DNA of 20,563 nt from a virus. Below are positions 1-14,003 of the stretch, in pieces. The DNA lies in IMG/VR virus record IMGVR_UViG_3300045135_000261, positions 1 through 20,563 of that record, one strand, 5' to 3'. The notes under the pieces were generated by a model. It did no database searches. It worked only from the letters and a program-made list of their open reading frames with translations, and was not told where the DNA came from. The translations under genes and the position numbers were made by a program. Every line of letters starts with the position of its first letter. The stretch's first letter is position 1.

Positions 1-96
1 CTTGCTGATAAAGACAGAGCTTTCGCACATGTTGTCCACATCACTGGCCGCCGATACGACAAAGCCGTTGCTCAGAATTTCAATATTAATCATCAT
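1..96 (-). CDS. Small hypothetical phage protein, cut by the window edge
   Basis: An open frame starts at the ATG at 94-96 (a second ATG follows at 91-93) and stays open for 32 residues to the left edge, so the C-terminus is missing. A GGAGG lies 9 bases before the first ATG, which favours that start. The start overlaps the last 11 bases of the preceding gene, the same coupled arrangement as the rest of this small-gene operon. The visible part begins MMINIEILSNGFVVSAASD, a short beta-rich start like those of many small marine phage proteins, but I recognise no function. The frame is short and unfinished, so it is supported mainly by its start signal and context. Confidence 0.5.
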   Translation of the reverse strand, partial: MMINIEILSNGFVVSAASDVDNMCESSVFISK

Positions 97-325
97 TTGT
101 GTAAGCCTCCATGAGATTGTCTGGCCGCTCGAGCGGCGTGGATGTTGATGTGATTATATTGGTCAGGATGCAGCGGCCCATCAGCCGCGCCTCGTGCAGC
201 GCCTGAGCGTTTGCACCAAGCACCTCGCTGCACTCCCACCTGTCTTTATAAGCATACGCCATGTGCTGATCGCTGTCCGCGTCGAGCGTCGATACGACAA
301 AAATTGTCAGATAGGTCGCAATCAT
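86..325 (-). CDS. Hypothetical 79-residue protein with hydrophobic N-terminus
   Basis: The ATG at 323-325 overlaps the stop of the upstream gene as ATGA and has an AGGAGG-type ribosome site inside the end of that gene, so the two are translationally coupled. Residues 3-14 (ATYLTIFVVSTL) are hydrophobic. This could be a short membrane anchor or a signal-peptide core, but there is no basic N-terminal residue and no clear cleavage motif, so a cytoplasmic beta strand is equally possible. The rest is mixed polar sequence with two cysteines (C32, C52). No family is recognised. It belongs to the leftward small-gene operon that starts at about 1550. Confidence 0.6.
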   Translation of the reverse strand: MIATYLTIFVVSTLDADSDQHMAYAYKDRWECSEVLGANAQALHEARLMGRCILTNIITSTSTPLERPDNLMEAYTNDD

Positions 326-870
326 AGCTCCACCTCCTCAGGGATAAGTTGGCAGAATTCGACTGCCCAGACTGTCGCGCCTGCCTTGGATTGATTGCCG
401 CGTGACCGAATGTCTGCTCGGCAGATCTCGCCGCGGTCATTCATGTTGGCTAGGTAGGTGCGGATGTTCTGCGTCACGACACCGAGGGCAGCCGCGACTT
501 GCGAGGTTGTTGCGGGGCCGACCATGTTGAGGAATGCGTAAGCCTCCTTGTATAGGTCACGCTGCGGCTTTGATATAGGATCTAGCTCGAAGCTGCCGCA
601 CTCGACCATCTCCTCTTTGATGTCGACCTGATCGCCTTCCTCTGCGACCTTGACGTGCAGGGCGAACCATGGGCAGCGGTCTGCATGCTCCTCGCTGCGG
701 TTTGGCACATACCAGACTGCGATGCGGTCGCCTACCTCGATGCCCGAGCGCTCGGCTACGATTGATCTGATGTAGATTTGCTCGCCATTGTCGGCTCGGA
801 CGGCAAAGCCCGTGCCATAGTCGTCGAGTGTTGTCACGAAAGCGTGAGTTTGATTTGGTTTGTCTAGCAT
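322..870 (-). CDS. OB/cold-shock-like domain fused to a helix-turn-helix domain
   Basis: The protein has 182 residues and starts at the ATG at 868-870 behind a well-placed AGGAGA; the TAG of the preceding 51-residue gene overlaps this ribosome site. Residues about 9-74 look like a five-strand OB fold of cold-shock type: a glycine-aromatic strand (TGFAVRADNGEQIYI), then VGDRIAVWYVPN, then a final PWFALHV strand. An acidic linker follows (about 75-100). Residues about 105-172 look like a winged helix, with TTSQVAAALGVVTQNIRTYL as the helix-turn-helix. Both halves are nucleic-acid-binding folds, so a phage transcription or RNA-binding regulator is the best guess. The domain calls are by eye and the function is inferred. 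Confidence 0.65.
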   Translation of the reverse strand: MLDKPNQTHAFVTTLDDYGTGFAVRADNGEQIYIRSIVAERSGIEVGDRIAVWYVPNRSEEHADRCPWFALHVKVAEEGDQVDIKEEMVECGSFELDPISKPQRDLYKEAYAFLNMVGPATTSQVAAALGVVTQNIRTYLANMNDRGEICRADIRSRGNQSKAGATVWAVEFCQLIPEEVEL

Positions 871-879
871 TGTCGTCTC

Positions 880-1035
880 CTAAAATGGTGGCTCTTCGCC
901 TAGATAACTTGGCATCCACTGTGTGATGATGCCTTTGACTGCTTGCGACCGTGTCTGTTGGGGCGGCCGCGACACCCCGACCTGCTGCAGCTCCTTCCAG
1001 AGCCACTCAGGTATCTTGTTCATCTGCTCGGTCAT
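880..1035 (-). CDS. Small 51-residue protein ending in an SSB-like acidic tail
   Basis: The ATG at 1033-1035 lies behind GGAGA at a spacing of 8 and the stop is TAG at 880-882. The start overlaps the last 29 bases of the upstream 56-residue gene in another frame, and the stop overlaps the ribosome site of the next gene. The sequence has an amphipathic N-terminal segment rich in tryptophan (IPEWLWKELQQ), a central basic part, and the C-terminus GEEPPF. The tail resembles the acid-proline-phenylalanine tip by which bacterial SSB recruits partners (DDDIPF in E. coli). No domain is recognised and the function is unknown. Confidence 0.55.
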   Translation of the reverse strand: MTEQMNKIPEWLWKELQQVGVSRPPQQTRSQAVKGIITQWMPSYLGEEPPF

Positions 1036-1177
1036 TGAGCTTCTCCAACCTGTCTACGATCGCCAGACACTCGCCCAGATCGTGTGTGAGCTGCTGCTTG
1101 CCGACTGACTTGGCGTCTAGCCGCAGGATGTCGATCTTGCGGCGTAGCCGCGCCAGATATTGCTTATTCGTAGTCAT
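1007..1177 (-). CDS. Small basic helical protein, 56 residues
   Basis: The ATG at 1175-1177 lies behind GGAGG at a spacing of about 9 and the stop is TGA at 1007-1009. It overlaps the gene before it by 14 bases and the gene after it by 29 bases, in different frames, which suggests translational coupling. The sequence is strongly helical with heptad-like leucine spacing: YLARLRRKIDILRL early and LAIVDRLEKLND late. It is probably a small two-helix or coiled-coil protein. The N-terminal half is basic and the C-terminus acidic. No known family is recognised. Confidence 0.55.
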   Translation of the reverse strand: MTTNKQYLARLRRKIDILRLDAKSVGKQQLTHDLGECLAIVDRLEKLNDRADEQDT

Positions 1178-1343
1178 CGCCTGTTGCCTCCGCTTCTTCT
1201 AGGGCTGCTAGGGCTTCCCGCATTGCGCGGTGTTTCTGCAGAAACTCGCCCTCGGTAATCATGTGGTTTTGGAATTCGCGGCGGGCCTTGTCGAAGGCCT
1301 CCCACGCTATCTGGTATTCGAGTTCACGGATCTTGATCAGCAT
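1164..1343 (-). CDS. Small coiled-coil protein, 59 residues
   Basis: I place the start at the ATG at 1341-1343, which shares one base with the upstream stop (TGATG) and follows AGGAGG at a spacing of 8. The frame is open further upstream, but that part only shadows the preceding gene. The sequence is almost wholly helical and charged (MLIKIRELEYQIAWEAF, then MREALAALEEAE), with an acidic C-terminus. It could be a dimeric helical hairpin. No function is recognised. It is the second gene of the leftward operon that begins at the promoter near 1560-1585. Confidence 0.6.
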   Translation of the reverse strand: MLIKIRELEYQIAWEAFDKARREFQNHMITEGEFLQKHRAMREALAALEEAEATGDDYE

Positions 1344-1531
1344 CACTGGGCCTCCTGCTGTAGCTGATGGATCAGGTTTTTGTAGCGCTGAATGTCGACG
1401 TGTAGCCAACCGATGTCGCCTGACACCCACGACGGGCGGACGCCCTTGTAGCGCTGCTCAAGCTCGGCAATCTCGCGCTCTGTGCGTTCGATCATGCCTT
1501 GGTAAAGTTTGATTTCGTCTTGGACTTTCAT
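1343..1531 (-). CDS. Small coiled-coil protein, 62 residues, first gene of the small-gene operon
   Basis: The start is set by AAGGAG seven bases before the ATG at 1529-1531. Starting 54 bases further upstream would place the ATG inside the promoter spacer, so the longer frame is rejected. The sequence has a long charged helix (residues 1-28, with MIERTEREIAELEQRY), a short central loop (VRPSWVSGDIGW), and a second helix (VDIQRYKNLIHQLQQ). This is a helical hairpin. No family is recognised. The transcript leader from the proposed promoter is only about 20 bases long. The next gene is coupled through TGATG. Confidence 0.6.
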   Translation of the reverse strand: MKVQDEIKLYQGMIERTEREIAELEQRYKGVRPSWVSGDIGWLHVDIQRYKNLIHQLQQEAQ

Positions 1532-1556
1532 GTCATTCTCCTTTGTGTATGCATAT

Positions 1557-1585
1557 AACATAGGGGCATCTGCCCCTATTTTCAA
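1557..1585 (-). promoter_or_regulatory. Leftward promoter of the small-gene operon with a built-in palindrome
   Basis: On the minus strand TTGAAA (1580-1585) and TATGTT (1557-1562) are separated by exactly 17 bases. A palindrome with perfect 9-base arms (ATAGGGGCA and TGCCCCTAT, two-base centre, 1560-1579) fills the spacer and touches the -10. This is the usual place for a repressor site. The same palindrome could also fold as a hairpin in RNA and, followed by TTTT on the plus strand, act as a weak rightward terminator. The promoter elements are 4-5 of 6 matches to the sigma-70 consensus, so this is an inference from sequence only. Confidence 0.45.
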
Positions 1586-1619
1586 TACCCTTAATAAACT
1601 TTTTTAACCCAATAAAATA

Positions 1620-1647
1620 AGGGCGACCGCTTGGCCGCCCTCTTTTT
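1620..1647. terminator. Bidirectional rho-independent terminator
   Basis: AGGGCG (1620-1625) pairs with CGCCCT (1636-1641). In the minus-strand RNA the stem continues through a G-U pair and two G-C pairs to a 4-base loop. Leftward, the stem is followed by UUAUUUUAUU. Rightward, it is followed by UCUUUUU. It closes the leftward replication operon just after the gene ending at 1670 and separates it from the small-gene operon. Confidence 0.75.
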
Positions 1648-1669
1648 AACATTCGCTTTAATTTACTAA

Positions 1670-2479
1670 TTAACCAGTGCATTCACCATCATCCCTTTGG
1701 CAAAGGAATGCCTCATCGTCAAATATCCAATCAGCCTGCCGATCGACAAAGTCGCCAAGATTTTTGTAGGTGCGAGACTTGTGAAAACTGCTGCCCAACT
1801 CAGCCTCCATGTCTGCCCACCATTGCATCCGATCTGGGTAATCGCGCCACATAGCAGCTAATGCCGCCTCTGACTTTAGGAAGCACCCATCACAGTTGCC
1901 AACGCCCACTGGCAGTTGCAGATCAAAGTCATTCGCTGCCCAATATCCATTCACATCAGCCTTGGTCGCGCCTGCATCTGCGAGAGGAAACCAATTATGC
2001 CAACGCTTATCTTTGGATGGTTTCACGCGATGCGCTTCGTCAGCACGAATGCCGACAGTGTTTACCCAGTGCGTCCATCCGATTGACACAAGATAGCGCT
2101 TAATTGTCTTGACCTTGGTTTCTTGTGTGCAAAACCGCGTCATTACATTTGGCAAATAGTTTCTTGACCTAATCAAAGCCTCTAGCGGCTCACCATTGCG
2201 TGATGCGCTGTTGTGACTGACAATCTCAAACCCAACCTTATTATCGCGCCGCACATACTCAATCCATGTGATAGGCACCTGCCATTCATCGCCGCAACGC
2301 TGCACAAAGTCCAACGTTTGCGGCATCTCGCGACCCGTGTTGGCAAACACAACCTTTGCGCGTTCTGGCAGGCCATCGTTTGCGTCAATGATCTGCTTGA
2401 GCATATATGCGCTTGTGCGGCCACCGCTGAAGCTGATCAGCACATTGCCTTCTGGCAAAGCGTAATTATTTTTCAACAT
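1670..2479 (-). CDS. PAPS-reductase-like PP-loop protein (CysH/DndC superfamily)
   Basis: The protein has 269 residues when started at the ATG at 2477-2479, which overlaps the end of the primase-helicase gene (ATGTTGA) and has GGAG just upstream; the longer open frame runs inside that gene. The PP-loop is SFSGGRTSAYM at residues 16-26, used by this superfamily to bind and adenylylate or bind PAPS/ATP. FANTGREMPQTLDFV and the VGIRADEAHR motif are typical of phage and DndC-like members. Cysteines C117, C196, C199 (CDGC), C260 and C267 could hold a metal or Fe-S cluster. The substrate is unknown: sulfate assimilation, nucleotide or tRNA thiolation and DNA phosphorothioation are all used by relatives. 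Base composition looks slightly poorer in GC than the primase gene, which would suit an acquired gene. It is the last gene before the terminator. Confidence 0.8.
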   Translation of the reverse strand: MLKNNYALPEGNVLISFSGGRTSAYMLKQIIDANDGLPERAKVVFANTGREMPQTLDFVQRCGDEWQVPITWIEYVRRDNKVGFEIVSHNSASRNGEPLEALIRSRNYLPNVMTRFCTQETKVKTIKRYLVSIGWTHWVNTVGIRADEAHRVKPSKDKRWHNWFPLADAGATKADVNGYWAANDFDLQLPVGVGNCDGCFLKSEAALAAMWRDYPDRMQWWADMEAELGSSFHKSRTYKNLGDFVDRQADWIFDDEAFLCQRDDGECTG

Positions 2480-4677
2480 TCGCTCCAACTTATCCACTCG
2501 CCGACCACGACGCATGGCACGTCTCGGCCTGTTCGCTTGTCTGGCAGATACTCGACCCGCAGTACGTCCTTGTTGACCCACGTCTTGAGTATCGACTTGA
2601 TCCTGCCCTTGTCTGCCTCGGGGTCGAGGTTCAGCACCTCCGCCACTGTATAGCCCGCCCAGTTTTTGGCCTGCGGATTTGATCGGGCAGGGTCGCCCTC
2701 GGCCTGATTACCGATAGCCTGCTGCACCCGCATGGCGTCCTTGGTGGTGATACCGTCGAACACGTCTGGCAGCTTGTATTCTGTCGCCACGCCGATCAGC
2801 TCATTATTGGCAAGCTCTACGCTGACCATTCGGCGGTAGACTGCCTTGTCTGCGGGCGGGGCCAGATTGGCCTTCCCGCTGTCGATCCGAAACAGGCCTA
2901 TTGCCTCGCTCTGAGGCACCCCAACGTTCATGGCGTCCTCTTCGGTCACCTTGTTAATCACCCGAGCTACCCGTGCCGCACCGATCAGGCTGCCCGCACC
3001 GCGGACGCTGTCGATTGTCGCATCCTCGCCATTGCCCTTGCGGACATGGTGGACAATGTGGACGGCGCAGTTAGCCTCTCGGGCGAGCTTTCGGAACATG
3101 GCCACGATTGCCTGGATCGAGCTGTTGCTGTTCTCGTTAGCCAAGTGAGTCGACACAAACGGGTCGATAATCACGAGGCCGATGCCGTTGTCCTTGACGC
3201 GCTTCATCAGCACCTCGAGCAGGGCGTCGTTTAGCGTCAGGCCATCTCGCGTCTCGGCACCCATGATCAGCTCGATCGTGTCCTCGGCGTCCATGAATAG
3301 CTTGCCTGCTATGTCCTCGTGCTTGACGTTGTAGTGCTTCATGGCTGCCGCGAGACGCAACATCATCTCTGACATGTCGTCCTCGAGGTTAATTACCCAG
3401 ACGTTGCACTGCTCGTAAATGTTCTCGCCGAGCAGCGGCCTGTTTGCCGCGACTGCCAATGCTTCCACCATTGTCAGGGATGTCTTGCCGATACCGCCTG
3501 CAGAGGCCGTCACGCTGACAAACCCCCTGATGTGGGTGCGGCCATAGATCCAGTGGCGGCGGGGCAGCAACAGCTCATTGATCGGCCCGACTGGTGTGGG
3601 CCACTCAAAGGCTGCAGGGGAAGCCTGCCCCGCCGCGTCAGAAGGCGTAGCGTCCTCGAGGGAGGGGGTTGGGACGCTTTGTTCGAGGCGCTGCACCATG
3701 GGGTCGGGGGGAGGTGTCCAACCCTTATCACGGGCGCCGTCGATCGCCTTCTGAACCTCTCGGCGGGTGTCGTCTACTGTGTAGCCCGCCAATGTGAATT
3801 TGTCTGTCAGCTCGTGGATCTCGTCGTCAGATAGGCCGCGGCTGACGTAGCTGCCAACCAACCTCACGACGTTGTGATGCCAGTCATTGCCCTGCAGGAT
3901 GTTCTGCTGCGCCAATGCCCGATCCATGGCCTGCTTACCGAGGTCGATCTGCAGGCCGCCAGATGTATCATGGCGTGATACATCCTGCACGGGGAAGGCG
4001 CGCAGCATGCGGTCGAATTCGACAGGGTCGCGGTCTTGGCTGAATTCTGTGCGGTAAGTGACAAGCTCGGGGACGTAGCCCTTTGCCTGCTTGTCAGCGT
4101 TAGGCCACGACACAGTGCCTGCCACGCGCATGATGCGGCTCGGGTTGACGACCATGGGGTCTGTCTTGAGAGAGGCCGCGATGCGCTTCTGCATGTCACG
4201 CCACGCGTCCAGATTGAAGACAGGATCCTCGAGCCGCCAATAGGCGTGGCCGCGGACAAATGGCTTCGTGCCTGTCTTCACGGACATTGTGAATTTTGGG
4301 CCTGCAAATGACAGAATATTCTGCATGGCGCCGTCATCGTCTGCATCAGCAAAGCAGAAGAATGCCGCCATGATGTCTGTGTCCTTGGCCGCCTTGCCTG
4401 CCAAGACGTTTTTGCCGTCGACAGGGTTTACGCAAACGTAAACATTCTGCTTGGCGGCGTTCATCTTATATGCATGCTCGACCGCGTCGTCGATCTGGAC
4501 GAGCGGGAACAGGGCGGATGTCGTGGATCTAGTGGTCGAGATGCAACGTATCTCGATCATTGGATTACCGCTTAGGGCTTCCCAACCCTCAGTAATCGTC
4601 GAGAGAAATCCGAAGATGTCGGTTTCGCTCGCTTGTGGCAATTCAGTCGTCATGTTACCCTCACTGTGTGGCCTCAT
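2473..4677 (-). CDS. Primase-helicase fusion: AEP (RepB-like) primase plus RepA-like RecA-fold ATPase
   Basis: The protein has 734 residues from the ATG at 4675-4677, behind a strong GGGAGGA; a second good start at 4653 would remove 8 residues. Residues about 45-230 look like an archaeo-eukaryotic primase: FADADDD (D111, D113) as the metal site, GHAYWRL (H144), and TDPMVVNPSRIMRVAGT (from D173). Residues about 255-322 resemble the PriCT helical linker found after such primases. Residues about 360-570 are a RecA-fold ATPase of the RepA hexameric helicase type: Walker A ASAGGIGKTS (K398, T399), Walker B GLVIIDPF (D505) and the IVHHVRKG motif. A C-terminal winged helix is likely (about 665-730). 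It probably primes and unwinds phage DNA, and is the core of the replication operon. Confidence 0.85.
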   Translation of the reverse strand: MRPHSEGNMTTELPQASETDIFGFLSTITEGWEALSGNPMIEIRCISTTRSTTSALFPLVQIDDAVEHAYKMNAAKQNVYVCVNPVDGKNVLAGKAAKDTDIMAAFFCFADADDDGAMQNILSFAGPKFTMSVKTGTKPFVRGHAYWRLEDPVFNLDAWRDMQKRIAASLKTDPMVVNPSRIMRVAGTVSWPNADKQAKGYVPELVTYRTEFSQDRDPVEFDRMLRAFPVQDVSRHDTSGGLQIDLGKQAMDRALAQQNILQGNDWHHNVVRLVGSYVSRGLSDDEIHELTDKFTLAGYTVDDTRREVQKAIDGARDKGWTPPPDPMVQRLEQSVPTPSLEDATPSDAAGQASPAAFEWPTPVGPINELLLPRRHWIYGRTHIRGFVSVTASAGGIGKTSLTMVEALAVAANRPLLGENIYEQCNVWVINLEDDMSEMMLRLAAAMKHYNVKHEDIAGKLFMDAEDTIELIMGAETRDGLTLNDALLEVLMKRVKDNGIGLVIIDPFVSTHLANENSNSSIQAIVAMFRKLAREANCAVHIVHHVRKGNGEDATIDSVRGAGSLIGAARVARVINKVTEEDAMNVGVPQSEAIGLFRIDSGKANLAPPADKAVYRRMVSVELANNELIGVATEYKLPDVFDGITTKDAMRVQQAIGNQAEGDPARSNPQAKNWAGYTVAEVLNLDPEADKGRIKSILKTWVNKDVLRVEYLPDKRTGRDVPCVVVGEWISWSEC

Positions 4678-4700
4678 GGCCTATCCTCCCTGACAAGAGA

Positions 4701-4731
4701 GTGCTAGGCGGCCGTCTCCTCCGCCTAGCAC
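4701..4731 (-). other. Perfect 11-bp hairpin between the SSB and primase genes
   Basis: GTGCTAGGCGG and CCGCCTAGCAC pair perfectly around a 9-base loop that contains AGGAG on the transcribed strand. The hairpin sits 8 bases after the SSB stop and ends about 23 bases before the primase start. The bases after it (UCUCUUGUC) make a poor U-tract, so it is more likely an RNA-processing, stabilising or attenuating element than a full terminator. Confidence 0.6.
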
Positions 4732-4738
4732 ATTCACC

Positions 4739-5365
4739 TCAAAACTCGAGGTCTTCATCTGCAGCCGCGGCTGCGGGCGCAGGAGCGGGCTGTGGAGCCG
4801 CTGCAGGCCGTGGAGCAGGCTCGGTGGCAATACCTGCCGCGGCACCTTCCTTGAGGCTGTCAGGGCGTTCAACCCACTTTGCAACCTCGAGGATCGGGGC
4901 CACAGTCGAGCCGCGCTTAAACTGCATGGCGTCTGTGCCTGCGAGCTTCACGACAGGCAGCATGCCTGGCGATGGTTGCGACTGCAAAGATGGTGCCAGT
5001 TTGACCAGTGCCTGCCACGCGGCCGCGCCTGCCTGCTCCCAAGTTGCCACGCGGCCACCGCCGAGCGCCACCTTGACCGACAGGCCTTTCTTCCAGTCAT
5101 CCCCTGGGGCTGCCATCATCTGGCTTGGCGATGGGTTCCACCGCCACTCAGGCGCCACGCCTGCCATGCCTTCAGACCGCTGCCATCCTGTCTTCATGGC
5201 CTCGATGTCGAGGATCATGCCCTTGGATACGTCGACCTCTTCCTTGTGGCCGCCGTCGCGGATGTAAAATGTCTTCGGGCCGATCTGGCCGTCTTGGGTG
5301 CCACGGGCTGACCACGCCAGAAACGGGCCAGAGGATCCGTCAGAACCTAAATCAAGTGCGAACAT
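4739..5365 (-). CDS. Probable single-stranded DNA-binding protein
   Basis: The protein has 208 residues; its ATG at 5363-5365 follows AAGGAG at a spacing of 7. Residues about 1-165 are beta-rich and could be an OB fold (FLAWSARGT, KTFYIRDGG, MILDIEAMKTGWQ, GLSVKVALGGG, FKRGSTVAPILEVAKWV). They are followed by an alanine-proline linker (about 175-202) and the acidic, aromatic tail ADEDLEF. Core, flexible linker and acidic tip is the SSB plan, and the gene lies between a recombination nuclease and the primase-helicase, where phage SSB genes are common. There is no sequence match to E. coli SSB that I can see, so the call rests on architecture and context. Confidence 0.6.
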   Translation of the reverse strand: MFALDLGSDGSSGPFLAWSARGTQDGQIGPKTFYIRDGGHKEEVDVSKGMILDIEAMKTGWQRSEGMAGVAPEWRWNPSPSQMMAAPGDDWKKGLSVKVALGGGRVATWEQAGAAAWQALVKLAPSLQSQPSPGMLPVVKLAGTDAMQFKRGSTVAPILEVAKWVERPDSLKEGAAAGIATEPAPRPAAAPQPAPAPAAAAADEDLEF

Positions 5366-5409
5366 TGTTGTCTCCTTGTCGCTTGCCCAAACGGGGCTTG
5401 GAATGCCGC

Positions 5410-5429
5410 AAAAGCCTGCGGCAGGCCTT
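5410..5429 (-). terminator. Possible weak terminator or attenuator after the nuclease gene
   Basis: In the leftward RNA AAGGCCUG pairs with CAGGCUUU (one G-U) around a 3-base loop, followed by UG. An alternative stem, GCCGCA with UGCGGC (5405-5422), competes with it. A further short stem, AUGGUC with GACCAU (5431-5445), covers the stop codon of the nuclease gene. Together they suggest that transcription is damped before the SSB gene. The U-run is short. Confidence 0.35.
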
Positions 5430-5434
5430 CATGG

Positions 5435-6184
5435 TCAAAGACCATAAAACTCTTCGCGCAGCGCCTCACTGCCGCGCCAGTAGAAACTGCCAGTGTTGAC
5501 TGGCACCGTGGCTCGAGCGCTGTCCTTGTCGTTGTGCTTCAGAAATGCCTCGAGCCGATTGATCTGCTGCTTGGCTCGGGCCAGTGTCTCGGCCACGTCG
5601 CCATCTTCTAGCAGGGCTGTCTTCTTTGGCGTGACATAGAGGAATTTGACGCCCATATTACCCATCGCCTTTTGATAGATGCAGCGCTGTAACTGATGCT
5701 CGTGCGTCATGACAGACGGACACCGCGTGGTGGTCTTTAAGTCGATGATTATGCCGTGTTCTGGAAAGACTAGATCGAGGAAACCAATTACAGGGATTTC
5801 GTAGCCGTCACCCTTAGCCAAAATGCTGACCTTGTGCTGTTTGTTGCTTTCTGGAAATTCTGGCTTGCCGTAGTCTTTCAGTTCTTCGATCGCCAAGGCT
5901 GTCATGTCAGAGATGTAGCCGCGCTCCTTGGTCGTCGTCTCGTCACCGATGGGGAAGCGGCTGTCAAATTTCTTTTCAGCCTTGGCCACTGCGGCGTCTA
6001 GGTCACCGCCCATCAGGACGTCAACTACTGCGTCTTCCGTGCAGATACCGCGCCAAGCCGCTGCACCCATGGGCGTCCGCTTGCCGTGTAGATACTGCAT
6101 CACCCAAACATCGGGCGCGTTAGCCCATAGGTTTAGGCTGCTCGCCGACAGGTGGTCGATTTTATGTTTTTCAAACCCGTTCAT
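5435..6184 (-). CDS. PD-(D/E)XK nuclease, RecB/Cas4-like exonuclease
   Basis: The protein has 249 residues from the ATG at 6182-6184, overlapping the upstream gene by 14 bases. HLSASSLNLW at 11-20 is the usual start of RecB/Cas4-type nucleases. The catalytic core is VIGFLDLVF (D137), IIIDLKTT (D148, K150) and the later HQLQRCIY motif (Q164, Y170) that follows it in this family. The acidic motif near residue 50 (GICTED) replaces the more usual histidine-bearing version. Such phage nucleases act in recombination or DNA-end processing, and some act as alkaline exonuclease substitutes. Its position between the Hjc-like resolvase and the SSB supports a recombination or replication role. Substrate polarity cannot be told. 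Confidence 0.8.
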   Translation of the reverse strand: MNGFEKHKIDHLSASSLNLWANAPDVWVMQYLHGKRTPMGAAAWRGICTEDAVVDVLMGGDLDAAVAKAEKKFDSRFPIGDETTTKERGYISDMTALAIEELKDYGKPEFPESNKQHKVSILAKGDGYEIPVIGFLDLVFPEHGIIIDLKTTTRCPSVMTHEHQLQRCIYQKAMGNMGVKFLYVTPKKTALLEDGDVAETLARAKQQINRLEAFLKHNDKDSARATVPVNTGSFYWRGSEALREEFYGL

Positions 6185-6587
6185 CTGCCATTATCTCCCT
6201 GACGATATAGCAGAATGCCTCAATGTTCATTTCCGCTTGATGGTTGCTTGTGGCGCCCTCAGCTCCGAATGCTTGATGCAGCGCCGTGAATGGCACCACC
6301 ACCCGAATATCTCGGCGGTCGTATTTGTATATGACTGCAGGCAATTTGCCGACGGCACCTGCCGCTGCCTTGGCTTGCTCCCACCAAGACACACGGCAAC
6401 CTGTCCCGTTGGCGTAACGCTTGCACTCGATAACAAATGGAAAAGCGTCGTCGCTTGGGATTAGGTCGCCGTGGTCGCTTGCTCGATACTGCTCGAGGTC
6501 ACGCTTGAATGAAATGCCTAATTCTGCCTCTAGGAGCTTCGCCGTGGAGCGTTCGAAGGCGCTTCCTTTATTGCGTCCATTGACCAT
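6171..6587 (-). CDS. Hjc-like PD-(D/E)XK Holliday-junction resolvase
   Basis: The protein has 138 residues. The ATG at 6585-6587 directly abuts the stop of the RHH gene (TAGATG). The pattern matches archaeal Hjc-type and related phage resolvases: NKGSAFERSTAKLL (G8, E12), then DHGDLI (D41), then FVIECKRY (E54, K56), then WWEQA (Q71) and a VIYKYDRRD strand. This gives a complete E...D...ExK...Q nuclease centre. It probably resolves branched DNA from replication and recombination before packaging. A less specific nicking nuclease of the same fold is the alternative. It is the second gene of the early leftward operon. Confidence 0.75.
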   Translation of the reverse strand: MVNGRNKGSAFERSTAKLLEAELGISFKRDLEQYRASDHGDLIPSDDAFPFVIECKRYANGTGCRVSWWEQAKAAAGAVGKLPAVIYKYDRRDIRVVVPFTALHQAFGAEGATSNHQAEMNIEAFCYIVREIMADERV

Positions 6588-6746
6588 CTAGTCCGCCTTT
6601 GGTTGCTCTGGATGAAAACCTGCCTTGCCTGCCGCGTCAACCGCGGCCATCCGAATGAAAGCCGACAGCGATAGACCGAGCTTCTGTGCGGCCAGTTCTA
6701 TCGCTGCGGCGTGGTCATCACTCAGATAAGTGATTGTCTTGCGCAT
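6588..6746 (-). CDS. Ribbon-helix-helix (Arc/CopG-type) regulator, 52 residues
   Basis: The frame runs from the ATG at 6744-6746, with AGGAGA at a spacing of about 8, to TAG at 6588-6590. The protein starts MRKTITYLSDDHAAAIELA, a beta strand of alternating residues (KTITYL) followed by helix A, then a turn (LGLSLSA) and helix B (FIRMAAVDAAGKAG), the standard RHH plan and size. RHH proteins bind as dimers with the strand pair in the major groove of short palindromes or repeats. It is the first gene after the leftward promoter, and a 12-bp palindrome lies about 90 bases upstream inside the opposing promoter. A repressor of the divergent switch is therefore likely. An antitoxin role is less likely, because no toxin gene adjoins it. 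Confidence 0.7.
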   Translation of the reverse strand: MRKTITYLSDDHAAAIELAAQKLGLSLSAFIRMAAVDAAGKAGFHPEQPKAD

Positions 6747-6777
6747 GAAACCTGTCTCCTCGTGGTTACGCCGTGCA

Positions 6778-6807
6778 ACCCTATCGCACCTGCCACATGC
6801 CCGTCAA
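6778..6807 (-). promoter_or_regulatory. Leftward early promoter (RHH and replication operon)
   Basis: On the minus strand TTGACG (6802-6807) is followed after 18 bases by TAGGGT (6778-6783), or after 17 by ATAGGG. The -35 is 5 of 6 to consensus and the -10 is poor. The likely start point near 6770 leaves a short leader before the RHH ribosome site. The call rests on the -35, the spacing and the position before an operon. Confidence 0.5.
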
Positions 6808-6823
6808 GTGCCTTAATTTTGAA

Positions 6824-6853
6824 TTGACATGATGCTTCATGAAGCGTTATCAA
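6824..6853 (+). promoter_or_regulatory. Rightward promoter with a palindromic operator
   Basis: TTGACA (6824-6829, perfect -35) is followed after 18 bases by TATCAA (6848-6853) or after 17 by TTATCA. The perfect 12-bp palindrome GCTTCATGAAGC (6834-6845) fills the spacer, with further symmetric matches outside it. CATGA also repeats exactly one helical turn apart (6828-6832 and 6838-6842). This is a classic repressor-site geometry. The neighbouring RHH protein is the natural candidate to bind it. Transcription would start near 6860 and reach the 29-residue gene after a short leader. Confidence 0.6.
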
Positions 6854-6882
6854 ATACGAACCAGACCAAAACGGAGGCAAAA

Positions 6883-6972
6883 ATGAAAGAGTGGATTGAA
6901 GATATAATTGGGGCAGTGTGCCTGTTTGCTATCGCATATCTAGCAATTATGGCGGGGTATGTATTCGGATGA
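6883..6972 (+). CDS. 29-residue single-pass membrane peptide
   Basis: The ATG at 6883-6885 has GGAGG at a spacing of 6. The product MKEWIEDIIGAVCLFAIAYL continues hydrophobic to residue 28 and ends in glycine, so residues about 7-28 form one transmembrane helix after an acidic amphipathic start. The stop overlaps the next gene's start as ATGA. Very small membrane peptides of this WIEDIIGA type seem familiar from alphaproteobacterial phages and prophages, but this is from memory. It could modulate the host membrane or act in exclusion. The strong ribosome site argues that it is translated. Confidence 0.6.
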   Translation: MKEWIEDIIGAVCLFAIAYLAIMAGYVFG

Positions 6973-7271
6973 TGGGGTTGATCACCGTGCCGCCAATTGA
7001 GGAGCGAGTTCTGACTGACGAGGGCATTCGCGTTTTAGAGGTGATTGCACAGAAACAAAAATCACACCTCGTCGCCCACCTGCATCACATCAATAGAAAA
7101 TTAAAATATTTTCGTGATCGGCAGATGCACCCTGCCACGCAAATGCTTGAGTGCTGCGGCTACATTGAGCTTGTAAAGCGCGTGGAGGTGGCAGGCCTCG
7201 GCCAAAACAAGGGCTACAAGCTCACAGACAAGGGGTGGGAAGTCCTCGGCGGTAAGCCAATCTGGATGTAA
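6969..7271 (+). CDS. Small winged-helix DNA-binding protein
   Basis: The protein has 100 residues, starting at the ATG at 6969 that overlaps the preceding stop (ATGA); the frame upstream is only a shadow of the membrane-peptide gene. A helical N-terminal half (LTDEGIRVLEVIAQKQ, then SHLVAHLHHINRKLKYF) leads into a wing: CGYIELVKRVEV, a loop with AGLGQNKG, then YKLTDKGWEVL. The final strand plus helix is typical of MarR/PadR-like winged helices. It is probably a regulator made from the rightward promoter. With the RHH protein opposite, the two could form a two-way switch. Two adjacent cysteines (C73, C74) occur near the wing. Its target is unknown. Confidence 0.6.
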   Translation: MMGLITVPPIEERVLTDEGIRVLEVIAQKQKSHLVAHLHHINRKLKYFRDRQMHPATQMLECCGYIELVKRVEVAGLGQNKGYKLTDKGWEVLGGKPIWM

Positions 7272-7303
7272 AAAAAAGACCCCCTGCTGTGATGGCAGGG
7301 GGT
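7270..7303 (-). terminator. Strong terminator for leftward (late) transcription
   Basis: ACCCCCTGC (7279-7287) and GCAGGGGGT (7295-7303) form a perfect 9-bp stem with a 7-base loop. In leftward RNA the stem is followed by C and then eight U residues (7270-7277). It overlaps the end of the rightward winged-helix gene and would stop transcripts arriving from the endolysin side. Rightward there is no U-tract. Confidence 0.8.
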
Positions 7304-7342
7304 AAGTCTTGGGAGGCAATCCCGAGCAGTGGGACTACCTAT

Positions 7343-7370
7343 TTGGTTTTGCACAGTTTTATGATATACG
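7343..7370 (+). promoter_or_regulatory. Possible promoter for the lone nuclease gene
   Basis: TTGGTT (7343-7348) and TATACG (7365-7370) are 16 bases apart, with TATGAT overlapping nearby at 7360-7365. The start point would be near 7377, about 24 bases before the gene. The matches are modest. The argument is mainly that the gene needs its own promoter, because the hairpin and a 129-base gap separate it from the operon to the left. Confidence 0.35.
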
Positions 7371-7400
7371 CAAGACAAGAGTAACGACCTTGCCAGAGAC

Positions 7401-7802
7401 ATGCAGAAAAAAGACACGCGGAAGACTGGCCGCGCGGGCGAATATTTAGCGTCATTTTTGTTTGAAATGAGCGGGCAGGTCGAAGTTCACCACGTCGACC
7501 GAACAGATTATGATCTGATTTGCCGCGTGTCAGACGGTCACCTCGTCAAGGTTCAGGTGAAGGCCGCGACAGAGGCGACGGTCAGGACGCCGCGGCAGCG
7601 GACGCCGACCTATGCTTTTTACAACAAGAGGGACAACGTAGATGTTGATTATTTCTGCTTCGTGGCTCTCGATCAGATGCGTATGAGGCTAATCAGGTCG
7701 CAGGACGTCAAGGTGAAATACACCACCATGCGTGTTGAAGAATTTTCTGATGAGCTACAAGCCGCCGATTTGGCGGCTTTTATTTTAGCTTTCAGCCATT
7801 AG
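7401..7802 (+). CDS. Lone PD-(D/E)XK endonuclease-like protein
   Basis: The protein has 133 residues. GRAGEYLASFLF (E14), DRTDYDLICR (D38), LVKVQVKAA (Q52, K54) and VDYFCFVALD (82-91) follow the PDDEXK_5-type endonuclease pattern, the group close to the I-Ssp6803I homing enzyme and Hjc-like folds. All expected catalytic positions are present, with Q in the E/Q-x-K site as in several members. It stands alone in the plus direction between the control region and the lysis genes. Its stop overlaps the endolysin end by 18 bases and its terminator hairpin lies inside its coding region. The ribosome site is weak (AGAG close to the ATG). The promoter, gene and terminator unit looks like a moron. Homing, host-DNA attack or exclusion are possible roles. 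Confidence 0.7.
   Translation: MQKKDTRKTGRAGEYLASFLFEMSGQVEVHHVDRTDYDLICRVSDGHLVKVQVKAATEATVRTPRQRTPTYAFYNKRDNVDVDYFCFVALDQMRMRLIRSQDVKVKYTTMRVEEFSDELQAADLAAFILAFSH
7759..7787 (+). terminator. Terminator lying before the stop codon of its own gene
   Basis: AAGCCGCC (7759-7766) and GGCGGCTT (7772-7779) form a perfect 8-bp stem with a 5-base loop, followed by TTATTTTA. Leftward the following bases (TTGTAGC) are not a U-tract, so it works rightward. The U-tract ends about 13 bases before the nuclease stop codon (7800-7802), so most terminated messages would lack a stop. Confidence 0.7.
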
Positions 7803-8300
7803 CAGGGCCGCCTGCCGCGTCTCCTTGTTCCGCCGTGTCCAACCGCGGCCGAAGGTATCAAACGTGTTGAGGCCCTGATAGAAGCGCTGACGCTCCTCAT
7901 ACATCATGTCGATGATCTTGACTGGATCCATGTCCATAACAGCCTGCAATGTCTTAGGGCCGATCTTGCCGTCAATTGTGGCGCCCACAATGCGCTGCAG
8001 CGCCCGAGAGGCGCGTCCTGGGCCTGAGTTCACACTCCAGTCTAGGACAGACCAGTCGACGCCAGACGGGAGGTCATCTCCGCGCACGGCGTCCCAGTAG
8101 TTCTTGCGGTAGATCGGCGCCACGTCGTCCACGGTAAGGCTCTTCATTTCGTCGATTGTGACGGCTCGGCCTACCCACTGCTCGTATGTTGCAAGCGTCA
8201 CGCCGAGATTGGTGGCGCCGCCAGGATCTTTAGGGTGGTTGACGAAGCCGCCCTCGTGCTTGAGCAGCATTTCAAAACAGTGGTCGAAGTTCTGTTTCAC
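7785..8300 (-). CDS. Endolysin, glycoside hydrolase 108 (muramidase) with C-terminal peptidoglycan-binding domain
   Basis: The protein has 171 residues from a GTG at 8298-8300 that overlaps the holin stop (GTGA). The N-terminal domain has the GH108 signature LKHEGGFVNHPKDPGG with the catalytic E16, then TNLGVTLATYEQW, and IYRKNYWDAVRGDDLPSG. Residues about 80-165 match the PG_binding_3 domain (WSVLDWSVNSGPGRASRALQ, then GKIGPKTLQAV). It cuts the glycan strands of the cell wall. There is no signal peptide or anchor, so it should depend on the holin for release. It is the last gene of the late leftward operon. Confidence 0.9.
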   Translation of the reverse strand: MKQNFDHCFEMLLKHEGGFVNHPKDPGGATNLGVTLATYEQWVGRAVTIDEMKSLTVDDVAPIYRKNYWDAVRGDDLPSGVDWSVLDWSVNSGPGRASRALQRIVGATIDGKIGPKTLQAVMDMDPVKIIDMMYEERQRFYQGLNTFDTFGRGWTRRNKETRQAALLMAES

Positions 8301-9572: not shown

Positions 9573-9598
9573 GAGGGGCCGACTACTGTCAGCCCCTC
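9573..9598 (-). terminator. Hairpin after the coat gene, likely partial terminator
   Basis: GAGGGGC (9573-9579) pairs with GCCCCTC (9592-9598). In leftward RNA a U-G pair and three more pairs extend it to an 11-bp stem with a tetraloop. It is followed by UACCUUUUG, a modest U-tract. It sits 8 bases after the coat stop. Such a site would let the coat message accumulate above the downstream genes. Confidence 0.55.
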
Positions 9599-9606
9599 CA
9601 TTTAGA

Positions 9607-10581
9607 TTAGAGTGCAGGGTCGATGTCTGCAATGACGCCGTGCGCCTTCTCGTTGTCGACCATCAAGCCGTATTCTGCCGAGATCAAGCGACGCTCGCTG
9701 TGGCCAGTGCGGGCCAAAGGAGTTTGCTTGGTGTTCGACAGGTAAGCAACGCGCGCCATGGATGGATCCAAGACGAATACGTCACGGCTACGGATGAAGC
9801 GCGAAGGCACAACCTGCAGCTCGCCGAAGTCGGAAACGTAGAGGTCAACAGCCGCCACGATCTTCTTGTCGGAAATGTCGCGGTAGCGAGTAGCCGAACC
9901 AGTGAAGGTCGAAGAGATCTTCTGCTTCACGCCAGAGCCACACAGAACGATGGTTGGTTCTGCGCCTTCGTCCCAACAGGAAGCGATAGTCGCCTTCAGC
10001 TGAGCTTCAGTCAACGCGCGCAGAGTGCCGTCAGTTGCGGCTGCGTCTGGGTAGCCAGATGTAGTGCCGCTGAGGGTTGGATCTGCACCGCCAGTGCCGC
10101 GGCTTGTGTTGGTCTTCAAGAAGGCCGACAAGGACGCGGTTTCACGAGCTGTGCCTGAAGCGCCTGCTACGGCGGCATTGTTCGTGCCGACGAGCATGGT
10201 TTCCATGTCGCGCTTCAGCTCTTTGAGCTTGTAAGCAATCTGCTTGGCCAAAGTCTGCGCGTCGCCTGCGCCGTTTACTGCTTCTGCAGTGTCGGACACT
10301 TCGACAACTTTGTCGGAGATCTGGGTGTAGTTGCCGAGGCGGATCGCGTTTGTAGGCGCGTCATTGCCAGGTGCTGCTTCACCTTCGATTACGACGTTGG
10401 TCGACGATGCTGCCGCCAATTCGATCACTGGCCACTCAAAGTAAGTGTTGCTTACGTTGCGGCGGCCGATAGCCGACATGAATGGAGTTTCGGTTGGGCT
10501 GATCGAAATCAGCGCGTCTTGAAGATCCTCGCGGATCGTGGAGACATCGTATGTCTCGTTGGTGTTTGCTGTAACAGCCAT
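9607..10581 (-). CDS. Major capsid protein (DUF5309 / SU10-type)
   Basis: The protein has 324 residues from the ATG at 10579-10581, behind AAAGGA at a spacing of about 8. NTNETYDVSTIREDLQDAL then ISPTETPFMSAIGRR is the usual N-arm of this HK97-fold coat family. Other features are FEWPVIELAAA, the long helix LAKQIAYKLKELKRDMETML (spine helix), VAAVDLYVSDFGELQVVPSR and VFVLDPSMARVAYL. There is no prohead-protease site that I can see. It forms the icosahedral shell and assembles on the scaffold encoded just upstream. The gene has its own ribosome site overlapping the scaffold stop region and is followed by a hairpin terminator, consistent with high expression. Confidence 0.9.
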   Translation of the reverse strand: MAVTANTNETYDVSTIREDLQDALISISPTETPFMSAIGRRNVSNTYFEWPVIELAAASSTNVVIEGEAAPGNDAPTNAIRLGNYTQISDKVVEVSDTAEAVNGAGDAQTLAKQIAYKLKELKRDMETMLVGTNNAAVAGASGTARETASLSAFLKTNTSRGTGGADPTLSGTTSGYPDAAATDGTLRALTEAQLKATIASCWDEGAEPTIVLCGSGVKQKISSTFTGSATRYRDISDKKIVAAVDLYVSDFGELQVVPSRFIRSRDVFVLDPSMARVAYLSNTKQTPLARTGHSERRLISAEYGLMVDNEKAHGVIADIDPAL

Positions 10582-10597
10582 GGGTCAGTCCTTTCGA

Positions 10598-11584
10598 TTA
10601 ACTGAGCAAAAATTTAGCGACGTCATCAATTGAGCCGCTCTGTCGCATACGAGCTGCAGCCTCGCGGGTGCGTTTCTGCTTAGAGCTTCGCGCATCCTTT
10701 TTAACTCCAGGCTTCACCACAGGACGTGCTGACTGAGCCTTTTGAGTAACCTCACCCCTAGTTTCCTGCATCTCACGCCATTTCATGGCGTCGTTCAGGA
10801 CGTTCAGATAGCGAGCGTCATCAATTGCGTTCAGCTCCCGCGGGTCGAACCCGTAGTAGTTAGATCCTGCCTGCACCATCTTATCCTTGTAAGCAGGTGC
10901 CCGCTTAGGGTCTGCTAGTTCAGGGATAGCTTGTTGCAGAACCTGCAATTGCTCTTGCAGGTAGGCTTGATGCTGCGCCTGGGTTTGCATTGCCTTCCGC
11001 TGCTGCATCTCAGTCATTTGAGCTTGTGTTTGCTCATACTGAGCGAGCTTTTCGTCATACTCGATCTTCTGCTGCATGTAGCCGATCGGGTCACGGTCGA
11101 ATAGCTCTTTGCTTGGCGGGGTCGGCTTCGACAGACCCTCTCCAGATTGGACGCGAGCATAGGCCTCTTGAACTTTCTGCTGCTCGGTTTGCAAGGTTTG
11201 ATACATCTCTTGCATCTGCTTTTTGGCAGATGCGAGCTGTTCCATCCCTTGCTGAATGTATGCTTGCCCAGAGTAACCTCGGGTCAGCTCGTCGAGGGTC
11301 ACCTGCTTCGTCTTGCCATCCACCTTGACGGTGTATAGCTGCTGCGCAGGCTCCTCAGTGGCTTCCTGGTCTTCTTGGTCGTCATACTCGTCGGACGGCT
11401 CGTCACCATCCTCTTCAACAGCCTCTTCGGCTGCATCATCCTCGGCCGATACCTCTTCGGTGTCGTCCTCGGAAACTTGTTCTGCGGCATCATCCTCGAT
11501 GATTTCCGCATCCTCAACCTGACTTGGTTGTTCGATAAGAGACGCTGCTACTGCGTCGATAGTGCCATCAGTCGTGTTATCCAC
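10598..11584 (-). CDS. Capsid scaffold protein
   Basis: The protein has 328 residues, starting with GTG at 11582-11584 behind an AGGA that overlaps the upstream stop (TAAGGA). Residues about 22-78 are extremely acidic (runs of D and E). A small beta element follows (LYTVKVDGKTKQVTLDEL, 83-100), then long coiled-coil helices from about 108 to 235 rich in Q, K, M and E. The C-terminus is basic (KKDARSSKQKRTREAAARMR), ending in VAKFLLS. An acidic head, coiled-coil middle and basic coat-binding tail is the scaffold plan, as in P22 gp8. Its position between portal and coat is also as in P22. It should leave the procapsid during packaging. Confidence 0.85.
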   Translation of the reverse strand: MDNTTDGTIDAVAASLIEQPSQVEDAEIIEDDAAEQVSEDDTEEVSAEDDAAEEAVEEDGDEPSDEYDDQEDQEATEEPAQQLYTVKVDGKTKQVTLDELTRGYSGQAYIQQGMEQLASAKKQMQEMYQTLQTEQQKVQEAYARVQSGEGLSKPTPPSKELFDRDPIGYMQQKIEYDEKLAQYEQTQAQMTEMQQRKAMQTQAQHQAYLQEQLQVLQQAIPELADPKRAPAYKDKMVQAGSNYYGFDPRELNAIDDARYLNVLNDAMKWREMQETRGEVTQKAQSARPVVKPGVKKDARSSKQKRTREAAARMRQSGSIDDVAKFLLS

Positions 11585-11595
11585 GGTGCCGATCC

Positions 11596-11826
11596 TTACT
11601 TTTTACGCTCCAACAGTCTACCAGTCGTGACATACGACTGTAGTTGCCGTTCTAGGAGCGATACGCACCGAACCATCCGATGCGCTTCCATGATGTCCTC
11701 TTCCGAGGCGGTGGGGTATTTAAATACCCCAACCTGACTATCTATTACCATAGTCAACGCCTCTTTGAAAAGATCGTCTTCCAGAATTGCCTTCGCGCGG
11801 GCTGCTTTGACCTTGACGTCCATCAC
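11596..11826 (-). CDS. 76-residue helical protein between portal and scaffold
   Basis: A GTG at 11824-11826 overlaps the portal stop (GTGA), with an ATG as the next codon (11821-11823) also possible. The protein is helical and charged: MDVKVKAARAKAILEDDLF, then MVRCVSLLERQLQSYV, ending in basic GRLLERKK. Small helical proteins with a RAKAILEDELF-like start are often found beside portal and coat genes in alphaproteobacterial phages, as far as I remember, but their job is unknown. Small terminase, head assembly factor or ejection-hub accessory are possible. I see no DNA-binding motif. Confidence 0.6.
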   Translation of the reverse strand: MMDVKVKAARAKAILEDDLFKEALTMVIDSQVGVFKYPTASEEDIMEAHRMVRCVSLLERQLQSYVTTGRLLERKK

Positions 11827-14003
11827 TGACCCATAAAGTTACGTTGACGGTTCTGCTCGGCCTGCACTCGGGCCACGTCGACCGAGGCGCCGTATTGGCC
11901 GAGGATCTTGGCTGCGTCGACAAGCAAGTTCTGAGCCATCTCGTCACGCTTGAGGTCGTCGCTTGCCGCCATCTCCATCAACTTGCGCTGATGCTCCATG
12001 GCCGCCTTCTGCATGTCGACCTGCGCCCGTGTCTGAGCCTTCATGCCCTCAGCCTGCAGATAGGCCTGCTGCGGATCGCTTGCCTGCCCCTGCTGCTGCT
12101 CCTGCATCATCGCCTGCATCATAAGCTGTTGCTCATACTCAGGCGTAATCGGGCGGAAATACCGCTCAGAATTTCGAATGCCAGACGAGGCAAGCATGTC
12201 TGCTACGGTGTTGCGGATGTTGGACAAGCCGACAACGCCGTTCTGTGGGCCGTAGTTCTGATAGACCTGCATCTGCAGCCCGAGGATTTCGCGGTAGGCT
12301 GCCGCCTTTTGATCTTCGCCACCAGTGCCAAGGCCGACATTGACGCTGACGTCCATGCCTATGTCCCAGACCCGAGGGTCGACAGGTGAATACTGGCCAT
12401 TGAGGCGCATAAACTTAGGCGCGTCTGCGTGTCTGACTGTGAGCTTGAGCAACAGGCTGAACAGGCGGCGCATGCCGCCCTCTGCCAAGTTGCGCGCCAT
12501 CACCTCTGTCTGGCCCGCTGCGGCCTGCACCGTGGCATTTACGGCTGCCTTGGTGGTCGACTGCAGTGCGTCTGGGTCAAGGCCCATAGATGCACGGGTG
12601 ACGCCTGTCTTCCCCTCGATCATCTGGTCGAGATACTGCATGGCAGGCAAAGTCTGCGCGGCAGTGAATGGCACAGAAAACGGCATCACAGCGCCAGGCT
12701 GCGTCATGCGGATGATGCCGCCGATCTCGTTGTTCAGCACGTCGTCGATGTCTACAGAGCCGTCTACGATGCCGATGCGTGGCGTGTTGGTCATTGCCAC
12801 GTTGTCGAGAACGCCGCGCATGATTGCAGTCGCGGCGTCTTGGTCGTCGATCAACAGATCTGCAACCGAGCGACCGAAGAATGCATGCGGCTCAGGATCT
12901 ACCTCAAACACGGCAAAGGGGATTTCGTCACATGGCATCATGTCAAGCAACTTGTAGCTCGTGCCGCCCATGATTATGCGGTGCAGGATTGGGACGCCTG
13001 TGCCGTCTGCGTCGATCCTCATGTAGGCCTCGGTGACCAAAACCTTTTTCATGGACGGATCGCGGGGGTTCTCGTCCTCGTCAGGATTGATCGGATAGCC
13101 GCGACGCTCTTCCTCTTCCTGAGCTGTCGTGTCAATCACGTCTGTCGAGCCGTCGAGGTTTGATACCTCGTCAAAGTCAAAGCCCATGGCGACAAGGTCG
13201 CCGACGCGCATGTCGGTGCGGTGACCGCAAATGTAGCAGTCGTCAATCGAGCGTGCGCCGCGGTCGATAAAGAATTCCTCGGGCGGAATAGACACGACGC
13301 AAATGTCGCCGTCTTTCGAGCGGCGCATCACTTTAACGTCATGGCTCTTTTCAACCATCATCGGCGTCTCGACGCCCTCGGCCATAACCTGCTCGCCAAT
13401 CACCTCTTCCGAATGCTCGAGGATCTCGATGTCAGGATCCATCACGACGGCCATGTATTGGGCGTCATTCAAGCCTGTGAAGGTGTGAATTTCCGAGGTG
13501 TCGTATTCTTCATAATACGCCTTGGCGATGCCGACCTTTTTGATCAGGGCGTCGTGGAAGACGTCAGAGAGGATGCGGAAGCCGCCCATCTCCTGAAATT
13601 TGTAGTGCATGTATTCTGTTGCCTGCTCGGCAATCTGCACGTCCTCGGCATTGCGAGGCACATACTCCACATAGCGACCAGACGACAGGAACACCCGCAT
13701 CAGGCTTGGCTTCACGGCGCGGACAGTGTCGCGCACCTTGGTTGCCACGACCCGAGAGCGGCCATCTTCATAACCGATGTCGACCTCGCCGTCGAAATAG
13801 CGCTGCGCCTTGATACGGTCAGGCGCAATGTCGCTCTCAATGAAATCAACAGCGTCGTCGATAGCCGTCGAGACGATGCCCTCAATCTCGTCGTCAGTCA
13901 GAGGCTCGAGGTCATCCTCGCCATATTCCTCTTCCTCGCCTTCCATGGCGTCCTCGAGGATGTCGCGGATGTCTTCGTCGTCAACTAGGTCTTCGGGTTT
14001 CAT
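11823..14003 (-). CDS. Portal protein (P22 gp1-like)
   Basis: The protein has 726 residues (P22 gp1 has 725), from the ATG at 14001-14003 behind AAGGGAAG. The first 42 residues are very acidic. The core has DIAPDRIKAQRYFDGEVD, VRAVKPSLMRVF, and the clip/stem region EGKTGVTRASMGLDPDAL then STTKAAVNATVQAAAGQTEV, which is characteristic of P22-like portals. Residues about 623-726 are a long Q, M and A-rich helix, as in the helical barrel of the P22 portal. The portal forms the dodecameric gate for packaging and ejection. The downstream genes (76-aa protein, scaffold, coat) follow the usual head order. Coupling to the next gene is through GTGA. Confidence 0.9.
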   Translation of the reverse strand: MKPEDLVDDEDIRDILEDAMEGEEEEYGEDDLEPLTDDEIEGIVSTAIDDAVDFIESDIAPDRIKAQRYFDGEVDIGYEDGRSRVVATKVRDTVRAVKPSLMRVFLSSGRYVEYVPRNAEDVQIAEQATEYMHYKFQEMGGFRILSDVFHDALIKKVGIAKAYYEEYDTSEIHTFTGLNDAQYMAVVMDPDIEILEHSEEVIGEQVMAEGVETPMMVEKSHDVKVMRRSKDGDICVVSIPPEEFFIDRGARSIDDCYICGHRTDMRVGDLVAMGFDFDEVSNLDGSTDVIDTTAQEEEERRGYPINPDEDENPRDPSMKKVLVTEAYMRIDADGTGVPILHRIIMGGTSYKLLDMMPCDEIPFAVFEVDPEPHAFFGRSVADLLIDDQDAATAIMRGVLDNVAMTNTPRIGIVDGSVDIDDVLNNEIGGIIRMTQPGAVMPFSVPFTAAQTLPAMQYLDQMIEGKTGVTRASMGLDPDALQSTTKAAVNATVQAAAGQTEVMARNLAEGGMRRLFSLLLKLTVRHADAPKFMRLNGQYSPVDPRVWDIGMDVSVNVGLGTGGEDQKAAAYREILGLQMQVYQNYGPQNGVVGLSNIRNTVADMLASSGIRNSERYFRPITPEYEQQLMMQAMMQEQQQGQASDPQQAYLQAEGMKAQTRAQVDMQKAAMEHQRKLMEMAASDDLKRDEMAQNLLVDAAKILGQYGASVDVARVQAEQNRQRNFMGQ

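Follow-up and report, generated by a model that had tools for sequence, protein, structure and literature searches.

Why should a gene of a marine phage carry, ahead of its own stop codon, an element with all the appearance of an intrinsic terminator? The question is raised by the 3' end of a 133-residue nuclease ORF (7401..7802, plus strand) in the viral DNA analysed here, a stretch of 20,563 nucleotides referred to below as the window. The element consists of a perfect hairpin (7759..7779, plus strand, AAGCCGCCGATTTGGCGGCTT), whose 8 bp are formed by the arms AAGCCGCC and GGCGGCTT around the 5-nt loop GATTT, and of the U-rich tail TTATTTTA, which follows directly at 7780..7787 on the same strand; the hairpin lies in frame, within the codons of the conserved QAADLAAF helix, and ends 20 nt before the stop codon TAG (7800..7802, plus strand). 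A GC-rich hairpin immediately followed by a U-rich tract, as found at 7759-7787, has the sequence make-up of an intrinsic terminator, and the rightward transcript would be expected to end at about 7786-7788. The folding energy is -14.1 kcal/mol for the hairpin alone and -14.7 kcal/mol in its local context, and the last 63 nt of the gene fold much more stably than their shuffled versions (z = -4.5). By a terminator score modelled on the d'Aubenton-Carafa formula, the site reaches 29.8, the top value on both strands of the window, the runners-up (23.8 and 16.9) being both leftward, near 1621-1640 and 7280-7302; a role of the 7759-7779 hairpin as a leftward terminator too was ruled out, no U-tail being present on that side. 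The choice of codons is also improbable: when the last 24 codons were resampled synonymously, with the window's own codon use and the protein sequence fixed, the strength of the element was matched in 2 of 4000 trials (0.25% in a second resampling with a looser tail rule), and the same resampling over all 24 genes of the window (60 trials) yielded on average none equally strong. Sequence, folding, score and resampling therefore confirm the perfect 8-bp hairpin and U-rich tail before the TAG that a preliminary description of this DNA had pointed out.

On sequence grounds, the protein can be assigned to the PDDEXK_5 family; indeed, it scores 27.6 bits against the Pfam profile (cut-off 26.1) and keeps the predicted catalytic residues, E14, D38 and K54 being invariant or nearly so across the homologues, at what we take to be the catalytic positions of the I-Ssp6803I-type family. 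The predicted structure, obtained from an input alignment in which the isolate-phage rows were left out, is confident (mean pLDDT 90.6), and its best fold match is I-Ssp6803I (2ost), a site-specific homing endonuclease; fold and family are shared, whereas the identity to the I-Ssp6803I chains is 15-18% and the window nuclease is a free-standing phage gene, with no intron and no known target. A PDB sequence search with the nuclease gave no match at E 0.01, and PADLOC gave none. The last helix of the model spans residues 117-129; a truncated product of about 128-129 residues is predicted to retain the whole fold and all conserved residues, with the loss of an unstructured end. It is the conserved C-terminal motif QAxD[IL]AxF whose codons encode the hairpin. 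Three different PD-(D/E)XK-type nucleases are found inside 2.4 kb of the window, at 5435-6184 and 6171-6587 on the minus strand and at 7401-7802 on the plus strand.

The preliminary description had considered the nuclease a lone gene, which is wrong: it closes a short rightward run, preceded on the same strand by a small winged-helix-like (wHTH) ORF (6972..7271), a neighbour that adjoins it also in the isolated relatives CRP-811, 821, 822 and 823, and it overlaps by 18 nt the convergent GH108 endolysin gene (7785..8300, minus strand), whose stop codon (7785-7787) falls within the U-tail. Inspection by eye revealed no convincing promoter immediately upstream of the nuclease. The endolysin gene closes the leftward series of lysis and structural genes, while the nuclease, in opposite orientation, belongs to a rightward, early-type module. 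Since no leftward terminator can be recognised before the one at 7303-7279 (7279..7303, minus strand), beyond the nuclease gene, the gene order suggests that late leftward RNA may cross this gene as antisense. The idea that the nuclease comes into play late in infection is unsupported and unlikely, given its orientation, its early-type module and the position of that terminator. The toxicity attributed to the nuclease in the preliminary description has no support. The genome is a mosaic: the early region of the window (1-8300) resembles CRP-8xx roseophages, the PAPS reductase DNA being 86% identical, and 9607-14003 encodes capsid and portal of SU10 type. Immediately after the major capsid gene, 9573-9598 on the minus strand forms a hairpin of -21.8 kcal/mol with a TACCTTTT tail.

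The simplest account for the nuclease is that an operon terminator had to be encoded in overlapping coding DNA; the hairpin would act as intrinsic terminator for the rightward transcript, whose last gene is the nuclease, and would insulate the late genes, a reading to which we assign a probability of roughly 0.6. It is favoured by the top score of the window falling where a rightward series of genes finishes, by the coincidence of both the tail and the predicted 3' end with the endolysin stop codon, by the improbable codon choice, by the similar layout in one homologue (L012, see below), by a convergent overlap in all clade members examined, and by the precedent of arfA. The 18-nt overlap of the two convergent genes would leave the last codons of the nuclease to encode the terminator, and RNA polymerase, released at the endolysin stop codon, would be kept from transcribing the late genes rightward. 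Most nuclease mRNAs would then lack a stop codon, and much of the truncated product, still complete in its predicted fold, would be tagged by host trans-translation, some stable full-length nuclease arising from read-through past the hairpin; the lowered amount of product may be a consequence, useful or not. Non-stop transcripts, as proposed in the preliminary description, are a fair inference from the confirmed pre-stop element; termination in vivo, tagging and a selected insulating purpose are presumed along with them.

How unusual such an arrangement is can be judged from 987 distinct phage genes of the fetched loci, whose ORFs were called mechanically, so that a few may be non-genes. Of the strong hairpins with a U-tail, 27 follow the stop codon and 11 lie deep in genes, while 4 are placed at most 90 nt before the stop codon, two of these 4 belonging to the nuclease discussed here; about 1.8 would be expected before the stop codon from the in-gene density. 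Pre-stop terminators are rare in phage genes and not generally enriched, which counts against the operon-terminator reading. Nor does the overlap force a pre-stop site, since in four roseophage-like contigs (L050, L051, L052 and L055), which share with the window the convergent early/late junction with overlapping genes, the terminator lies instead 3' of the stop codon, within the opposing gene. Insulation is likewise not generally needed, as eight of the nine clade homologues described below overlap their neighbour and yet have no comparable hairpin. In the same survey, a strong conserved hairpin (-19.5 to -22 kcal/mol) with a U-rich tail was observed about 243 nt before the stop codon of a tail assembly chaperone gene (L134:23618-23962, L135:21792-22136 and L136:20279-20623, minus strand), perhaps linked to frameshifting.

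Relatives of the nuclease were found in five isolated roseophages (CRP-811, 821, 822, 823 and 831) and, by an alignment-based scan of viral contigs, at 43 virus contig loci; a peptide-pattern query of viral contigs gave no relatives, genome contigs contained none, and the nuclease was not found at loci sharing the early region or the endolysin of the window. The close clade comprises the window, the five CRP phages, L009, L012, L016 and L019, that is nine homologues of the window gene, and an overlap of 18-25 nt between the nuclease and a convergent ORF is seen in every member examined, the partner gene being variable and often unannotated. The hairpin is present only in L012, a comparable element being absent from the other eight, among which CRP-821 and CRP-822 are near-identical. 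Although the L012 nuclease is only about 36% identical to that of the window, its hairpin, AAGCCGCCGATCTGGCGGTTT, uses the same codons with 2 differences in 21 nt, and the layout is the same, the last stem base being at 2972 and the tail ending at the stop codon of the convergent ORF (2980-2982); codon resampling gives 0.13%, and the terminator score is a moderate 9.1 for the GC core, the full stem (-17.5) not qualifying as a terminator. L016, whose nuclease is 93% identical to that of L012, lacks the hairpin: when L012 (2564-3004) is compared with L016 (2613-3053), identity is 86-100% along most of the gene and falls sharply over the last 25 or so codons, to 66, 63 and 44% in the last blocks. 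This collapse suggests an exchange of the 3' end, likely a recombination junction at the early/late boundary. The pre-stop hairpin therefore recurs without being conserved. The preliminary description had proposed a search for the same in-frame hairpin in homologues, and had regarded its absence from otherwise similar ones as contrary evidence; the search went against it in eight of nine cases, and the L016 sequence comes near to such evidence, even though the searches yielded no close relative of the nuclease gene of the window. Long imperfect hairpins at the same codons of CRP-831, CRP-821 and CRP-823 were rejected as terminators, that of CRP-831 scoring -45. An ORF with a signal-peptide-like start converges on the nuclease at L002:6372-6650, L003:2872-3150 and L005:2887-3291 (minus strand); it is unannotated in CRP-831, CRP-821 and CRP-823, and annotated in a 69-residue version in CRP-811.

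The putative terminator, wholly upstream of the stop codon and in frame with it, recalls arfA and brfA. In E. coli, arfA overlaps the convergent mscL by 4 nt and has its hairpin before the stop codon (PMC10070815), nearly the whole ArfA protein being made from non-stop mRNA (PMC6299226); in the brfA gene of Bacillus subtilis a typical Rho-independent terminator within the coding region, effective in vivo, causes the loss of the last 9 codons, and its synonymous disruption abolishes both termination and regulation (PMC6881298). An arfA-like design, with the nuclease level under tmRNA-dependent control, had been suggested for this locus, and its geometry is borne out, the control hairpin of E. 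coli arfA ending 19 nt before the stop codon as against 20 here; in each of the two genes that bear the hairpin its codons are an improbable choice (0.25% and 0.13%), and the truncated nuclease is predicted to preserve its functional core, conserved residues and fold included. Unlike the hairpin of the window nuclease, however, that of arfA is long, cleaved by RNase III and followed by a poor U-tail (terminator score -32 vs +30), and for brfA a feedback by way of trans-translation has been demonstrated. Furthermore, arfA and brfA both encode rescue factors, so that non-stop expression closes a logical loop; a PDDEXK nuclease has no evident such logic, no tmRNA or ribosome-rescue gene was found in the 20.5-kb window, and the hairpin is kept in just one of nine clade homologues. 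On balance this design is doubtful here; tmRNA-dependent control of the nuclease is possible, an arfA-like sensing switch possible but unsupported. We regard as still less probable that the nuclease is programmed from non-stop mRNA so that its level reports the state of host ribosome rescue, as the first case outside rescue factors, and one that arose at these codons on more than one occasion.

A further objection to the operon-terminator reading is that a ribosome closely trailing RNA polymerase may mask the hairpin. If masking prevailed, most mRNAs would carry the stop codon and the element would act, in a polarity-like manner, on poorly translated transcripts; coupled ribosomes do stop terminator hairpins forming in coding sequence (PMC5021804), and the entire nuclease hairpin is translated. 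The terminators of arfA and brfA are likewise translated and yet terminate (PMC6299226, PMC6881298), and we consider predominant masking unlikely. Mere coincidence, in which the alanine codons of the AADLAAF helix give the inverted repeat and the TTT-ATT-TTA codons the U-run, is very improbable in view of the top score of the window, the 2/4000 frequency and the recurrence at the same place in L012, even if an identical 23-nt string, also able to encode AADLAAF, occurs far inside a long ORF of L133 that is unrelated to the nuclease.

If transcripts end at the hairpin of the operon terminator proposed above, the phage makes a nuclease of intact fold from a stop-less mRNA, a design that, among the published cases compared, is documented only for the rescue factors ArfA and BrfA. 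This suggests that convergent gene overlap can yield non-stop genes as a by-product, from which arfA-type control could plausibly evolve; arfA, too, overlaps its neighbour mscL.

The leftward terminator beyond the nuclease is also the end of an MmgR/alphaR8-like small RNA (RF00519; 7264..7340, minus strand, read 7340-7264), matched over its full length with 42.2 bits (Rfam cut-off 41) and composed of the core CCUCCCAAGACUU and a strong terminator; the wHTH and nuclease genes lie on the other strand. The core CCUCCC(C)AAGACUU, with a terminator directly after it, is met again in the isolated roseophages CRP-811, 821, 823 and 831, where it separates the helicase gene from the ssDNA-binding gene, and core and terminator are found also on the contig of L009; these recurring cores reach 27-30 bits against RF00519, below the threshold. 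These copies, unannotated and with CCUCCCCAAGACUU as the core ahead of the terminator, lie on the plus strand at L134:6850, L135:6319, L136:5636, L160:1519 and L166:1527.
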